Positions 46-55,144 of a stretch of 64,000 nucleotides of DNA are shown piece by piece. Origin of the DNA: Halopseudomonas salegens. GTDB taxonomy: Bacteria; Pseudomonadota; Gammaproteobacteria; Pseudomonadales; Pseudomonadaceae. A program made the position numbers and the translations under genes. The DNA lies in assembly GCF_900105655.1 (NCBI RefSeq), contig NZ_LT629787.1:1116001-1180000 (forward strand), read 5' to 3'. How positions within the stretch are numbered: the stretch's first letter is position 1; each line of letters starts with the position of its first letter. The notes beneath the pieces were generated by a model. It searched no databases. It was not told where the DNA came from and worked only from the letters and a program-made list of their open reading frames with translations.

Positions 46-157
46 GGCGGTATTACCTGACGCCTGCCCCAGACACGCTGCAAGTACATCCCTGTAAGCT
101 CGTCTGTGACCGTCCCTGGTCACAGACGGTCTGGGGCAGGCGTCAGGCAATACCGCC
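46..157. repeat. Structured intergenic repeat, copy 1
   Basis: Long inverted repeat: arms 46-73 and 130-157 are 28 nt each with a single mismatch (A55 against C148). Between them lies a core shared with two other copies in the window: CACGC, a mini-hairpin TACATCCCTGTA (85-96), GCTCG, then a perfect 10-bp hairpin (101-110 / 119-128, loop CGTCCCTG) and ACGG. It ends about 54 nt before the start codon of the VWA gene. Whether it acts as RNA structure, terminator or DNA site cannot be told from sequence alone. Confidence 0.85.
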
Positions 158-10924: not shown

Positions 10925-12030
10925 TTAGCGGAACGGGTTTGTATACACCCCCGAACAGCATCAGCAATGAAGAACTGGTTGCCAGTTTCAACGCCTATGT
11001 CGAACAGTTCAATCGTGACAATGCCGCCGCTATCGAGCGCGGCGAGATGACTGCGCTGGCCGGTTCGAGCACCGATTTCATTGAAAAGGCTTCGGGTATC
11101 AAGAGCCGTTACGTGGTCAACAAGGAGGGTATTCTGGATACCCGGCGCATGGTTCCGGATATCCCCGAGCGCAGCAATGACGAATGGTCGATCCTGTGTG
11201 AGATGTCGGTCAAGGCGGCTACCCAGGCCCTGGAGCGGGCTGGTCGCACGGCCGCTGATATTGACGGGGTTATCGTTGCCTGTTCCAACCTGCAACGGGC
11301 CTACCCGGCAATTGCCATCGAAGTACAGGACGCGCTGGGCATCGATGGCTTCGGTTATGACATGAACGTGGCGTGTTCATCGGCGACTTTTGGTATCCAG
11401 AATGCGGCCAACAACATTCAGTTGGGTCAGGCGCGTGCAATTCTCATGGTTAACCCGGAAATCTGTACCGGGCACATGAATTTCCGTGACCGTGACAGCC
11501 ACTTTATCTTTGGTGATGCCTGTACGGCAGTGGTGCTGGAGCGAGCCGATCTGGCTGTATCCGGGCACCAGTTCGATATTCTGGGTACCAAGCTGTTGAC
11601 CAAGTTCTCCAACAATATCCGCAACAACTTCGGTTATCTCAACCGTTGTGCGCCGGAGGGTGTTGGCCAACCGGACAAGCTGTTTATTCAGCAGGGCCGC
11701 AAGGTGTTCAAGGATGTCTGTCCCATGGTGGCCGAGCTGATCGGGACGCACCTGCAGGAGCATAACCTGCCCGTTACCGATATCAGCCGTTTCTGGTTGC
11801 ACCAGGCCAACCTGAACATGAATATGTTGATTGCACGCAAGCTGCTCGGCCGTGATCCGGATGAAAAGGAGGCGCCTGTAGTGCTTGATCAGCATGCCAA
11901 TACCAGCTCTGCCGGCTCGATCATCGCCTTCCACAAACATCAGGATGATCTGCCCAGTGGCAGCCATGGAGTCATCTGTTCCTTTGGTGCCGGCTATTCG
12001 ATTGGCAGTGTGATTGTGCGCAAGCAGTAA
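10909..12030 (+). CDS. Beta-ketoacyl-ACP synthase III family protein (PA3286-like)
   Basis: A 373-residue thiolase-fold condensing enzyme with the KASIII triad Cys156 (NVACSSATF), His298 (WLHQAN) and Asn331 (HANTSSAGS). It is longer than FabH (about 317) and resembles the P. aeruginosa enzyme that condenses medium-chain acyl-CoA from beta-oxidation with malonyl-ACP, shunting degradation intermediates into synthesis (recalled from the literature). It starts with GTG at 10909 inside the 3' end of the hydrolase gene; AGAAGAGGA lies 6 nt upstream and supports this start. Nearness to the two fadD genes fits the shunt role. Substrate chain length is not readable from sequence. Confidence 0.88.
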   Translation: MHNVVISGTGLYTPPNSISNEELVASFNAYVEQFNRDNAAAIERGEMTALAGSSTDFIEKASGIKSRYVVNKEGILDTRRMVPDIPERSNDEWSILCEMSVKAATQALERAGRTAADIDGVIVACSNLQRAYPAIAIEVQDALGIDGFGYDMNVACSSATFGIQNAANNIQLGQARAILMVNPEICTGHMNFRDRDSHFIFGDACTAVVLERADLAVSGHQFDILGTKLLTKFSNNIRNNFGYLNRCAPEGVGQPDKLFIQQGRKVFKDVCPMVAELIGTHLQEHNLPVTDISRFWLHQANLNMNMLIARKLLGRDPDEKEAPVVLDQHANTSSAGSIIAFHKHQDDLPSGSHGVICSFGAGYSIGSVIVRKQ

Positions 12031-25980: not shown

Positions 25981-27129
25981 ATGACTAGCCCTTTGGCCGA
26001 ACCCCTGATGATCGATCAGGATGCCACCCTGGCATCCTACTGCGCCCACTGGCAGCAGCTGCCCTATGTGGCACTGGATACCGAATTCGTCCGTACAGAA
26101 ACCTTTTTCCCGATTGCCGGCCTGATTCAGGTCGGTGACGGCGAACACAGTTTCCTGATTGATCCGTTGGAAATAAATGACTGGCGGCCCTTTGCCGAGC
26201 TGCTGACCAACCCGTCAGTCGTCAAGGTGCTGCATGCCTGCAGCGAAGACCTGGAAGTGTTCCGCAATCTCTGTGGCGCCGTGCCAGCGCCGCTGTTTGA
26301 TACTCAGATTGCCGCAGCCTATCTGGGTATGGACTTTTCCATGGGCTATTCGCGTCTGGTGCAGCAGATTCTGGATATCGAACTGCCCAAGGAAGAAACC
26401 CGTTCCGACTGGTTGCAGCGCCCGCTGACCAAAGCACAGATCACCTATGCGGCTGGCGATGCGCAGCACCTGGCGGAGCTGTATCAGGTGCTGGCTCCGC
26501 GGATCGAGGCGGCCGGGCTGACTGACTGGTTGCTGGCCGATGCCGCCGACCAGGTTGCTTCCAGCAACCTGGTTCAGGACCCGGAAACTGCCTACCTGCA
26601 GATCAAGCAGGCCTGGCGCTTGAAGCCGGCCGAGTTGGCCATACTGCAAGTGCTCTGTGAGTGGCGCGAGCGTGAATCCCGCGAACGCAATCAGGCGCGC
26701 AACCGCCTGTTACGGGAAAAGTCACTGTGCCCATTGGCCCAGCGCCAGCCGGACAGCCTGTCAGCCTTGTCGTCTATCGAGGACATGCACCCGCGTACCG
26801 TGCGTCAGCATGGCAATACCATTCTCGAATTGATCCGCGAAGGCGCCCGGCGCCCGCGTGAAGAGTGCCCCGAGCGACTTGAAGAGCCACTGCCTCCAGC
26901 GGCCAACAAGTTGATCAAGGCGATGCGTCAGGTCGGTCAGCGTCATGCTGAGCGGCTGGGTATGGCGCAGGAATTGATGCTCAAGAAAAAAGTGCTCGAA
27001 GCCTTGATCCGTACCGGCTACCCCCAGGGCCCCTACAGCCTGCCGGATGAGTTGACGGGGTGGCGGCGCGAGCTGATGGGCGCAGAATTACTGGCAGTGG
27101 CCAATAACTTTGCCGAGGCATCCGCATGA
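25981..27129 (+). CDS. rnd: Ribonuclease D
   Basis: A 382-residue 3'-5' exoribonuclease of the DEDD family, involved in trimming tRNA 3' ends. The catalytic acids are seen in VALDTEFVR (Asp33, Glu35), in HACSEDLEVF, and in YAAGDAQHLAELY; one or two HRDC domains fill the C-terminal half, from about 205 on. The ATG at 25981 is preferred: AAGGAAAA lies upstream and it gives the normal N-terminus; longer readings cross the chemoreceptor promoter. Its stop overlaps the ycgL start (ATGA). Confidence 0.95.
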   Translation: MTSPLAEPLMIDQDATLASYCAHWQQLPYVALDTEFVRTETFFPIAGLIQVGDGEHSFLIDPLEINDWRPFAELLTNPSVVKVLHACSEDLEVFRNLCGAVPAPLFDTQIAAAYLGMDFSMGYSRLVQQILDIELPKEETRSDWLQRPLTKAQITYAAGDAQHLAELYQVLAPRIEAAGLTDWLLADAADQVASSNLVQDPETAYLQIKQAWRLKPAELAILQVLCEWRERESRERNQARNRLLREKSLCPLAQRQPDSLSALSSIEDMHPRTVRQHGNTILELIREGARRPREECPERLEEPLPPAANKLIKAMRQVGQRHAERLGMAQELMLKKKVLEALIRTGYPQGPYSLPDELTGWRRELMGAELLAVANNFAEASA

Positions 27130-27425
27130 AAGTCCCGTGCTCGATTTACCGCAGCAGGAAGAAATCCGGCATGTATCTGTATGTGCCGCGCAGCAAGCCA
27201 CTCGACGAGTTGCCCGAAGCGCTGATGCAGCTGTTTGGCCGGGCCGAACACAGTATGGATCTGGTGCTCACCGAAACGCGCACCCTGGCCCGTGAGGATA
27301 TCCACCAGGTGCTGGCCAATCTGCAGGAGCAGGGCTTTCACCTGCAAATGCCGCCGGATGAAAAACTGGATGACTATATCCAGCACCTGCCAGAGCATTT
27401 GCTGCGCTTTAATGATCCGGTGTGA
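27126..27425 (+). CDS. ycgL: YcgL-domain protein
   Basis: A 99-residue YcgL-family protein with the CSIYRSRKKSGMYLYV start and the P-x-LxxxFG segment typical of the family. Structures are known but the biochemical role is not. It overlaps rnd by 4 nt and is therefore translationally coupled to it, a pairing kept in many gammaproteobacteria, which hints at RNA metabolism. The second copy of the structured intergenic repeat starts 23 nt after its stop. Confidence 0.9.
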   Translation: MKVPCSIYRSRKKSGMYLYVPRSKPLDELPEALMQLFGRAEHSMDLVLTETRTLAREDIHQVLANLQEQGFHLQMPPDEKLDDYIQHLPEHLLRFNDPV

Positions 27426-27447: not shown

Positions 27448-27558
27448 GGCGGCATTGTCAGCCCCTTACCCCGGACACGCTGTAAATACGTCCATGTAAG
27501 CTCGTAGATGCCATCCCTGGCATCTAACGGTCCGGGGTAAGGGGCTGACAACGCCGCC
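27448..27558. repeat. Structured intergenic repeat, copy 2
   Basis: 28-nt arms 27448-27475 and 27531-27558 pair with one mismatch (A27454 against C27552). The core has the CACGC, TAC(G)TCCATGTA mini-hairpin, GCTCG, an 8-bp hairpin TAGATGCC / GGCATCTA with ATCCCT loop, and ACGG, as in copies 1 and 3. It lies between the convergent ends of ycgL and queD, where it may serve as a two-way terminator. Confidence 0.85.
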
Positions 27559-27584: not shown

Positions 27585-27941
27585 TCACTCCCCGCGATAA
27601 ATACAACCGCAGGTACAGGTCTCGCGCAGGGTAATCTGGCTCAGTTCCGGTAGGTCTGGCTTGAGTTTGTGCCAGATCCAGCGGGCAATCACCTCACTGG
27701 TCGGGTTTTCCAGCCCCGGCAAGTCATTCAGGTAGTTGTGGTCGAGCTGATCATAGATCGGTTTGAAGATCGCCTTGATATCGGCAAAATCGCGCACCCA
27801 GCCGGTATGCGGATCAACCGGGCCACTGATATGGATCGCCACCTGAAAGGAATGGCCATGCAAACGGCCGCATTTGTGCCCGGCGGGGACATTCGGCAAG
27901 CGGTGGGCTGCCTCGAAGGTGAATTCCTTGAAAATTTCCAC
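27585..27941 (-). CDS. queD: 6-carboxytetrahydropterin synthase QueD
   Basis: A 118-residue enzyme of the 6-pyruvoyltetrahydropterin synthase fold. It converts dihydroneopterin triphosphate to 6-carboxytetrahydropterin in queuosine/preQ1 synthesis. The zinc ligands are His13 (EAAHRL) and the HGH pair near 29-31, with the catalytic Cys of HKCGRLHGH at about 24. A C-terminal [10 protein letters not shown] segment is present. It starts with GTG at 27941 with AAGGT about 9 nt upstream. No other queuosine gene is nearby and no preQ1 riboswitch is seen in the 84-bp upstream gap. Confidence 0.93.
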
Positions 27942-52178: not shown

Positions 52179-52763
52179 TTACAGCCTTATCAGTCCGGTG
52201 AAGCCCATGAAGGCGAGCGACATCAGGCCGGCGGTGATCATGCCGATGGCGGCACCCTGGAAGGGGGCGGGGACGTCGGCGATGGCGATACGCTCGCGCA
52301 GGGCGGCAAACAGGATCAGAATCAGGGAGAATCCGATGGCGGCGCCAAATCCGTAGGTGGCGGATTGCATGAAGGTCTGTTCGCTGCGGTTGGTGTTCAA
52401 CAGGGCGACCCCGAGTACGGCACAGTTGGAAGTAATCAGTGGCAAGAAGATGCCCAGTACCCGGTACAGCAAGGGGCTGGTTTTGTGCACGACCATCTCG
52501 GTAAATTGGACGACGACGGCGATTACCAGGATGAACGATATGGTACGCAGGAATTCGAGTTCTAGCGGCACCAGTATGTATTGAAATGTGATGTAGCTGA
52601 GAATGGCAGCCAGGGTAAGCACAAAGGTGGTGGCCGCAGACATGCCAATGGCCGTCTCCAGTTTGCCGGAGACGCCCATAAAGGGGCACAGCCCGAGAAA
52701 CTGGACCAGTACGAAGTTGTTGACCAGGATGGTGCTGATCAATATCAGGGCAAATTCTGTCAT
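52179..52763 (-). CDS. rsxA: Electron transport complex subunit RsxA
   Basis: A 194-residue six-helix membrane subunit, first of the operon, normal length for RsxA (about 193). The start at ATG 52763 gives [19 protein letters not shown] as usual; an upstream TTG at 52784 would add seven residues. Its promoter must lie in the 266-bp gap to metG, which also holds the third structured repeat. Confidence 0.95.
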
Positions 52764-52825
52764 GCTTACCCAACCGTTTTCCAATCGCCTGCGATAGCTT
52801 CAAGGGCGATCTGATTGTGCCGGCC

Positions 52826-52928
52826 GGCTTTCCGGCCAGCGGCTGAGGACACGCGGTGAATACATCCCTGTACGCTCGTGGATGCCATCCCTGGCATCCA
52901 ACGGTCCTCAACCGCTGACCGGAAAGCC
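52826..52928. repeat. Structured intergenic repeat, copy 3
   Basis: 24-nt arms 52826-52849 and 52905-52928 pair with two mismatches. The core matches copies 1 and 2: CACGC, TACATCCCTGTA mini-hairpin, GCTCG, then GGATGCC / GGCATCC hairpin with ATCCCT loop, and ACGG. It lies 101 bp after metG and 62 bp before rsxA on the minus strand, so it could end metG transcription or sit in the rsx promoter zone. Confidence 0.85.
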
Positions 52929-53029
52929 TGCTCTCAAATTCCGTGCAGTCTGCGGGAAAACCCACATAACCTGCTTAATGTTTGATTCCAGCCTGAAGCT
53001 TACAGCGATTTCCGTCAGCCTCCGGCTTG

Positions 53030-55075
53030 CTACATCACTCTCTGACCCGGCTTGGCACCCTGATCGGGGCTTAGCAGGTGGATCTCCTTGCCGCCCGGGC
53101 CGGCGGCCAGCACCATGCCTTCGGACACACCGAATTTCATCTTGCGCGGGGCCAGGTTGGCGACGTAGAGGGTCAGCCGGCCTTCCAGCGCGCTGGGATC
53201 AGGGTAGGCGCTCTTGATGCCGGAGAAGACGTTGCGCTTGGGACCGCCGAGGTCGAGGGTCAGGCGCAGCAGTTTGTCGGCGCCTTCAACGAATTCGGCT
53301 TTTTCAATCAGGGCAATGCGCAGGTCAACCGCGGCAAAGGCATCGAAGTTGATTTCGGCGGCCAGCGGTTCTTTGTCCAGTTCGCCATTGGTCGGTGCGG
53401 CGGCTGCAGCATCGGCGGCCAGGTCTTCTTTTGAGGCGGCAACCATGGCTTCAATTTTTGCCGGCTCGATGCGTGTCAGCAATGGCTGGAAGGCATTCAG
53501 CTGGTGGTTGGCCAGCAGGGTCTGGTGATCATCCCAGGTCAGGGCCGGGACGTTGAGGAAGTCCTCGGCGGCAACGGCCAGTTTTGGCATGACCGGTTTG
53601 AGCAGGATGATCAGCTGGCGGAACAGGTTGATGCCCAGGGAACAGATGGCCTGGACCTCGGCCTGCTTGCCTTCCTGTTTGTTCAGTGCCCAGGGCGCCT
53701 GTTCGGCGATCCAGGCGTTGGCGCGGTCGGCCAGGCCCATGATATCGCGCATGGCGCGGGAGAAGTCGCGCTTTTCATAGGCGTCGCCGATGCTGGGCAC
53801 GGCGGCGAAGAAGGCGGCGGACAGTTCTGGGGCCGGGTTGGCGTCGACCATAACGCCCTGGTTGCCTTTATGGATGAAGCCGGCGCAACGGCTGGCGATA
53901 TTGACCACTTTGCCGACCAGATCGGAGTTGACCTTCTGGATGAAGTCGTCGAGGTTGAGGTCGAGGTCTTCAACACCGCGGCTGAGCTTGCAGGCGTAGT
54001 AGTAGCGCAGGTATTCCGGCTGCAGGTGATCCAGGTAGGTGCGCGCCTTGATGAAGGTGCCGCGGGACTTGGACATTTTCTGGCCGTTGACGGTCAGGTA
54101 GCCGTGCACATTGACACCGGTCGGCTTGCGGAAGCCGGCACCGTGCAGCATGGCGGGCCAGAACAGGGTGTGGAAGTTGACGATGTCCTTGCCGATAAAG
54201 TGATACAGCTCGGCGCTGGAATCCGGCCCCCAGAAGGTGTCGAAATCGAGTTCGGGGCGGCGCGCGCAGAGGTTCTTGAAGCTGGCCATGTAACCGATCG
54301 GCGCGTCGAGCCAGACGTAGAAATATTTGCCGGGCTCGCCGGGGATCTCGAAGCCGAAGTAGGGTGCGTCGCGGCTGATGTCCCATTCCTGCAGTTCGTT
54401 GTTCAGCCATTCGTCGATCTTGTTGGCGACGGCGTCCTGCAGGGCGCCACTGCGGGTCCATTCCTTCAGCATGGCCTGGAATTCGGGCAGCTTGAAGAAG
54501 AAGTGCTTGGAATCCTTGAGCACCGGGGTGGCGCCGGAGATGGCCGAGCGCGGGTCTTTCAGTTCGGTGGGCTCGTAGGTGGCGCCGCATTTTTCGCAGT
54601 TGTCGCCGTACTGGTCTTCGGCGCCGCATTTGGGACAGGTGCCCTTGATAAAGCGGTCAGCGAGGAACATGCCCTTGTCGGGGTCGAAGTATTGGGTGAC
54701 TGAACGCGTGGCGATGTGGCCAGCTTCTTTCAAACGTCCGTAGATAAGCTCGGCAAGCTGCTGATTTTCTTCTGAATGTGTCGAGTAGTAGTTGTCAAAC
54801 TCAACCAGGAAATCGGTAAAGTCGGCGCTGTGCTCGGCGTGCACGTTGGCGATCAGCTGTTCGGAGGTAATGCCTTCCTTTTCCGCACGCAGCATGATGG
54901 CCGAGCCATGGGCGTCATCGGCGCAAACATAGATGCACTGGTTGCCGCGCAGCTTCTGGTAGCGCACCCAGATGTCGGTCTGTATGTATTCCAGCATGTG
55001 GCCAAGGTGAATCGAGCCATTGGCGTAGGGCAGGGCGCTGGTTACCAGAATCTGACGGGGTTGAGCAGTCGACAT
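53030..55075 (-). CDS. metG: Methionyl-tRNA synthetase
   Basis: A 681-residue class I synthetase. HLGH signature at about 25-28, zinc-binding knuckles [18 protein letters not shown] at about 145-165, KMSKS loop KMSKSRG near 335, anticodon-binding helices, then a C-terminal EMAP/tRNA-binding domain after an Ala-rich linker (about 560-585). The ATG at 55075 is chosen because the next upstream Met codes for an unusual extension. The terminator is not obvious; a structured repeat lies 101 bp downstream. Confidence 0.97.
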
Positions 55076-55144
55076 AGTCTCTCGGCTTAAGCTGGCTGAC
55101 AAATTGAAGGGGCGTAATCATACCTGTTTGCCGCCGTGCGGTCA

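Follow-up and report, generated by a model that had tools for sequence, protein, structure and literature searches.

The repeats analyzed here have their closest described counterpart in YPAL/RU-2, a palindrome of about 168 bp that the available excerpts of the literature present as a Yersinia MITE without naming a protein partner. In the accessible part of one account, YPAL is a mobile repeat with no terminal repeats in the description given, and its targets are dyad symmetries or sites right beside them; it is reported to be expressed together with the genes upstream of it, with a possible effect on RNA stability (PMC2229807). Also from Yersinia comes the sRNA Ysr224 (Rfam RF02770), temperature responsive and, as far as the consulted portion of a review goes, among the most prevalent annotated sRNAs (PMC9029176). 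The TwoAYGGAY motif is listed for gammaproteobacteria, clostridia and human gut in the excerpt consulted of Weinberg 2010 (PMC2864571). On the protein side, the available extract of a study on CsrA gives the SELEX consensus RUACARGGAUGU, whose GGA sat in a hairpin loop in 51 of the 55 RNAs, and reports that CsrA bridges two sites 10–63 nt apart, the optimum being above 18 nt (PMC7652899).

The window, the whole stretch of 64,000 nucleotides that was analyzed, spans positions 1,116,001–1,180,000 of the Halopseudomonas salegens genome (one contig of 3,796,005 bases). It holds three copies of a repeat, at the places where a sequence-only reading had put them, each with arms of 28–29 nt, 89–97% complementary, set 53–54 nt apart around a core whose pattern, with up to three mismatches allowed, occurs at three places in the window and at none in 100 shuffles; the RNA folding z-scores of the copies, both strands taken together, range from -8.4 to -14.2. 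That reading had noted TCC(C/A)TG in both loops, which stands as a plus-strand description, although the constrained strand is the other one, on which the loops read GGA. Copy 1 occupies 46..157 with the GGA strand on minus, its 29-nt arms (46–74 and 129–157) being 97% complementary; on the minus strand, hairpin 1 lies at 103..126 with a 9-bp stem and the motif CAGGGACG, and hairpin 2 at 85..96 (UACAGGGAUGUA, hexaloop AGGGAU), a match with one mismatch to RUACARGGAUGU falling at 86–97 minus. Copy 2 (27448..27558, minus; 29-nt arms at 27448–27476 and 27530–27558, 97% complementary) sits between convergent genes of the YcgL-domain (27126–27425, plus) and PTPS (27585–27941, minus) families and has, both on the minus strand, hairpin 1 at 27505..27526 with motif CAGGGAUG and hairpin 2 at 27487..27498 (UACAUGGACGUA, hexaloop AUGGAC). 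Copy 3 (52823..52931, minus; 28-nt arms at 52823–52850 and 52904–52931, 89% complementary) is flanked by two minus-strand genes, one of the Rnf-Nqr family (52179–52784) and one methionyl-tRNA synthetase-like (53030–55102); its hairpin 1 at 52879..52900 (minus) again carries CAGGGAUG, and its hairpin 2 at 52861..52872 (minus) is UACAGGGAUGUA, which together with the next base matches RUACARGGAUGU at 12 of 12 positions (52862–52873, minus). Hairpin coordinates in copies 1 and 2, and those of hairpin 1 in copy 3, were read off the sequence.

Aligned locally to the printed letters of RU-2, taken from the accessible part of PMC2759123, copies 1–3 score 31, 46 and 41, the maximum among 200 shuffles of each being 24. 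By this comparison the core is homologous to that of the Yersinia YPAL/RU-2 repeat, and an element for which the sequence-only reading could name no defined family does have a Yersinia name. The likeness extends to the order of the two GGA hairpins, to the long inverted repeats and to the many intergenic copies, about 40 in H. salegens. The arms, in contrast, are unlike, and recent H. salegens copies carry an outer inverted repeat, GGRARCACTGATTAA, at either end, unlike YPAL as described in the consulted part of PMC2229807; we therefore file the repeat as a relative with a YPAL core, not as YPAL itself. The window copies have lost these outer repeats. YPAL/RU-2 makes target duplications of 3–26 bp at dyad symmetries. 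Our comparison on this point is a single site: at about position 1695 of locus L023, H. salegens has a bare 14-bp palindrome, inside which genome G015 (L328:2001–2086) holds the core, with a 4-bp repeat. The difference could reflect insertion into a hairpin or a deletion, and is possibly a view of target choice.

Other comparisons are looser. The Ysr224 model aligns across the core in copies from H. salegens and elsewhere, though below its curated threshold of 70 bits (best scores 28.0 in 10 H. salegens loci and 40.8 in 20 other loci), and it represents the strand opposite to the GGA strand; with the window searched against Rfam at gathering thresholds, no curated family lies over the repeat. 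By anatomy, the repeat would work like the CsrB/RsmZ-type RNAs, which have repeated GGA hairpins with the CsrA consensus, except that those are single RNA genes with many sites and here the units are dispersed, mobile and of two hairpins within one long stem; no Rfam match to a CsrB/RsmZ-type RNA was found in 10 H. salegens loci at E ≤ 10. TwoAYGGAY stands, by name, for two AYGGAY loops, as opposed to the AGGGAU that is commonest in the repeat, and identity with it was dropped, no Rfam row of that name appearing in the 10 H. salegens loci at E ≤ 10.

A covariance model built from nine H. salegens copies, the kind of test proposed along with the initial three copies, gives 40 matches in the genome at E ≤ 1, 37 of them below 1e-8: H. 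salegens carries about 40 copies. The earlier suggestion that structure is conserved above sequence is borne out. Among the nine copies, two-sided change is seen at 21 of 33 pairs, and pairing holds in 93.5% of cells; in an alignment of 62 copies, drawn from 48 loci of H. salegens, its genus, its order and its class, these figures rise to 30 of 33 pairs and 95.5%, with the reservation that this alignment was fitted to the model and thus leans towards structure. Partners slid out of register pair at only 34–43% in the same alignment, and for none of five measures of covariation does any of 500 shuffles reach the observed value. Arms identical across loci, which would have spoken for simple duplication, occur in part: the left arms of H. 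salegens copies have a mean pairwise identity of 0.46 and a maximum of 0.88, because recent copies have arms and outer repeats in common. In the full set of 215 copies, obtained from the alignments after removing duplicates and rows close to a locus end, the stem runs for about 28–30 pairs, after which pairing ends.

The mismatches within the arms tell the two strands apart. Read on the GGA strand, arm positions 0–16 of the 215 copies have 117 G.U against 20 A.C, and positions 17–25, outside the model columns, 151 against 33. After removal of copies with similar arms, which kept 140 of the 215, G.U exceeds A.C in 67 copies and the reverse is true in 7 (p 2e-13), the excess holding in H. salegens (7:1 copies), its genus (27:1) and the others (33:5). 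Beyond the stem, at positions 30–59, the pattern is reversed, with 597 G.U against 933 A.C and A.C in the lead at 28 of 30 positions. Arm mismatches that are mostly G.U on the GGA strand, and the opposite beyond the stem, argue that a single-strand fold of the GGA strand is preserved; on this mismatch pattern, the fold of that strand only, minus in the window, is kept.

On the GGA strand both hairpins show CANGGANG. Leaving aside five copies of odd core length, two such motifs occur in 181 of 210 cores, one in 28 and three in a single core, a tally in which copies without GGA are somewhat underdetected since the covariance model contains the loops; the opposite strand has one motif in 9 of the 210, and shuffled cores have one in 2.3%. 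In the majority of copies, each hairpin has an ANGGAN hexaloop with C-G as its closing pair. The loops are better conserved than the stems: in the 62-copy alignment, GGA has a conservation of 1.00 in both, the flanking C, A and G 0.93–1.00 and the N positions 0.65–0.77. The gap between the two ANGGA is 18 nt in 123, and 17–20 nt in 180, of the 190 cores with exactly two, a spacing within the bridging distance of CsrA. On the GGA strand, 126 of the 210 cores have a best match to RUACARGGAUGU with up to two mismatches, against none on the other strand, and such sites have their GGA in a hairpin loop, as expected of a CsrA/RsmA target. The loops, matching the CsrA consensus, would give a name to the protein target that had been among the roles first suggested. 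Lone sites of this kind are not rare: an unrelated third site with one mismatch lies at 11706 of the window, and three or more sites with at most one mismatch turn up in 5 of 100 shuffles. H. salegens has two CsrA-family genes, starting MLILTRRVGE and MLILTRRTGE. We put at about one half the likelihood that CsrA binding is the reason for these loops.

Some copies are composite. Seven of the 215 reach a length of ~134 nt through a nested module inside hairpin 1; on the GGA strand, five of the seven modules contribute two more hairpins, one CANGGA and one GCAGGAGC, whereas the other two are inverted and their GGA loops are lost, which counts against the involvement of CsrA. An additional H. salegens copy with further inserts, near 292.4 kb, was met by BLAST and scored E 6e-8 (L335); at L335:2040–2255 it has both the nested module and a structured insert where hairpin 2 would be, as though another repeat had inserted into the loop.

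Taken together, we consider it an evenly balanced proposition that the repeat is a mobile palindrome and that its RNA presents CsrA/RsmA hairpins as a spaced pair. Each copy would have arisen by insertion of such a small palindrome, one of the YPAL/RU-2 family, with a GGA strand folding into a 28–30-bp stem that bears two hairpins side by side. Read-through or a nearby promoter would produce the RNA of that strand, and one CsrA/RsmA dimer could then bind both hairpins. Scattered copies would act as CsrA docking sites in host RNAs, affecting stability or translation, and all copies together as a diffuse CsrA sponge, to which the nested modules of some copies would add GGA hairpins; arm sequence would be free to drift as long as the fold survives. 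Comparison between copies and genomes supports the parts of this proposal that concern multiple copies, mobility, a one-strand fold, spaced loops of the CsrA consensus and retention at one locus. Several observations count against it. Ysr224 is modelled on the other strand, and orientation relative to the neighbouring genes is random. Junction bases outside the loops equal GGA in their invariance; CsrA leaves this unexplained, and it points to a second constraint, perhaps recognition by a mobility enzyme.

The invariant junction is among the features that an alternative would cover, unlikely in our estimation yet deserving attention: a plain mobile element, with a transposase or recombinase recognizing the folded, single-stranded GGA strand and the CsrA match being a coincidence. 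Recognition of folded single-stranded DNA is familiar from REP/IS200-type enzymes and from integron attC sites, and G.T wobble is tolerated in single-stranded DNA too, so that wobble in DNA explains the strand asymmetry equally well. Mobility itself is common ground. The MITE-like spread suggested by the sequence-only reading fits a multicopy element that is patchy in the genus (18 of 24 other genomes) and has nested modules and, in recent copies, outer inverted repeats at both ends. Copies within 600 nt of each other are head to head (-+) in 30 of 36 pairs, the others being three +-, two ++ and one --. In the one-contig genomes G000, G001, G008, G012, G021 and G029, with the origin placed from dnaA and the terminus assumed opposite (for five of these genomes, copies among the matches listed), 190 listed copies divide 108 vs 82 against fork direction (p 0.07), and the GGA strand of unpaired copies runs against it 48 vs 24 (p 0.006; n=72, among the matches listed). 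This modest bias is a point for the plain mobile element and also one against it, as, by reasoning, it places the other strand on the lagging-strand template; nor would such an element lead one to expect an exact CsrA consensus in which the N positions vary and the sites lie at a bridging distance.

Movement is also visible at single loci. At the copy-1 locus, G005 and G003 are without the element and have other intergenic DNA instead, so no junction can be read; in relatives, a different inverted repeat, CCCTCTCCC..GGGAGAGGG, is found there (L053:181–300 and the corresponding end of L068), and the place thus seems to attract repeats. The copy-2 locus gives a model match in 0 of 25 relatives' loci, synteny to the right being often broken and the G015 locus stopping short of the site. 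The site of L028 gives one in 2 of 22 loci (L262 in G015 and L286 in G011); loose pattern matches in L300, L313, L263 and L266 were dropped, their fold being unlike the element. At L233, L252 and L256 there are short remnants with the outer repeat kept and the core gone, resembling hairpin deletions.

Once in place, an element may stay for long. One intergenic locus keeps a copy, A, in eight species of the genus (G001, G003, G004, G007, G016, G021, G023 and G024; loci L050, L055, L057, L060, L205, L208, L213 and L220), with orthology inferred from the flanks, and in six of the eight a head-to-head partner, B, in the same orientation. From species to species, two-sided differences affect 0–15 of the 28 arm pairs and no more than 6 pairs are broken, yet all 14 copies have ANGGA in both hairpins, loops being judged by eye. 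The gene beside this locus looks like that of lysyl-tRNA synthetase.

We consider it improbable that the repeat is an mRNA-stability or processing element whose long stem blocks or directs nucleases such as RNase III, the loop sequence being of minor importance. Such a role has been proposed for YPAL in Yersinia, according to the available part of PMC2229807, and the placement of copies speaks for it in that convergent neighbours are commoner than divergent ones. Genes were called by a simple codon model that had the window as its training sequence and is cruder for other genera. By these calls, 4 of the 215 copies overlap a gene body and 54 have a neighbour missing; the neighbours of the remaining 157 are convergent in 44 cases, divergent in 14 and codirectional in 99. 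The codirectional copies have the GGA strand as sense in 47 cases and as antisense in 52. Read-through alone would therefore yield GGA RNA at only about half of them, and the idea that copies serve as sense 3' UTRs was dropped on these counts; around each of the three window copies, no sigma-70-like promoter was found in the surrounding 400 bases. What speaks against the stability element is that the loops exceed the stems in conservation and that a stem by itself would fix neither GGA nor one strand.

Still less probable, to our mind, is an artefact of mutation: through template switching, the two arms of a long quasi-palindrome would stay complementary and its interior would flip, with no selection on the fold. 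Some observations speak for it. Thirteen unambiguous comparisons of H. salegens with an orthologue, at nine loci, include eight with the same orientation and five reversed in place, and thus 5 of the 9 loci are reversed in at least one comparison; the reversed cases are L019, L022, L028 and L079 against G015, which make up four of the five G015 comparisons, and L025 against G018. In the pairs L019/L326, L022/L334, L028/L262, L079/L322 and L025/L194, the interior is flipped, with position and arms unchanged; one arm pair of L028/L262 went from C-G to A-T. Left out of this set were L018/L331, where a pair faces a single partial copy, L023/L328, which are not at the same site, the ambiguous rows of L071, and L074/L321, about 300 nt apart. 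All orientation rows, which mix elements with head-to-head partners, comprise 66 same and 29 reversed of 95, and as other-species comparisons mostly keep the orientation, flipping is not general. In the orthologous copies of L014 and L045 (1501–1588 in each), ten adjacent arm positions have changed on both sides with pairing kept, possibly in a single template-switch event, and template switching may help create two-sided changes. Acting alone, however, it should erase G.U and A.C alike, yet A.C is far rarer, and it does not account for the conservation of the loops. An intrinsic terminator, possibly bidirectional as the sequence-only reading had considered, we regard as very improbable: the stem is strong and frequently lies between convergent genes, but no T-run follows it, and scans of the three window copies lent no support, giving a short terminator-like stem at 154–170 that touches only the arm end of copy 1, another near copy 2 that falls outside the element and none at copy 3.

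The expectation of further copies in other gammaproteobacteria proved right. Of 38 genomes, H. salegens and its relatives, 22 have copies: H. salegens itself, 18 of the 24 other genomes of the genus, with 8–62 each, and 3 of 13 genomes from other genera of the order. In a sample of the class, at least 67 of 369 genomes and at least 60 of 272 genera carry the element, strict filters and a maximum of 12 candidates per genome making these counts lower bounds. In a phylum sample, 28 of 398 genomes have it, all 28 belonging to the species itself, the same order or the same class (how many of the 398 lie beyond the class is unstated), and none of the 16 genomes listed for other genera of its own family carries it. 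Searches of other replicons gave no match for copy 1 against plasmids (blastn, E 1e-3), for copy 2 against phages (E 1e-2) or for the exact core pattern in viral contigs. None was obtained for copy 2 in E. coli genomes either (blastn, E 0.1), but the available part of one paper lists three YPAL matches in E. coli (PMC2847712), and our search may simply have been too insensitive.

CsrA (PF02599) was found in 313 of the 369 class-sample genomes and, compared by hand, in 62 of the 67 element-bearing ones. Those with the element and no CsrA match (G045, G106, G137, G233 and G380) count against a role for CsrA, although G233 alone among them reaches 90% completeness. Among genomes at least 90% complete, CsrA is present in 55 of 56 with the element versus 225 of 258 (Fisher p 0.015), which is weak support for the association, CsrA being present in most of the class and relatedness uncontrolled.

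The core of this family was known from YPAL/RU-2; what is new here is the one-strand constraint, the paired loops of the CsrA consensus and the retention in eight species. Searches of the literature found nothing that joins CsrA with YPAL, or "CsrA binding" with "repetitive elements", and for CsrA and MITEs nothing on these repeats by title, the broader literature being judged among the matches listed. It is possible, at a little under even chances as we see it, that mobile palindromes of gammaproteobacteria carry ready-made, correctly spaced pairs of CsrA hairpins, and that by jumping, flipping and taking up nested hairpins they add and remove docking sites, shaping both the reach and the free level of the regulator. 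If the loops do bind CsrA/RsmA, a widespread bacterial repeat would gain a mechanism, the titration of CsrA would acquire a source that is both dispersed and mobile, and the repeat content of related species could be used to predict how they differ in Csr control.
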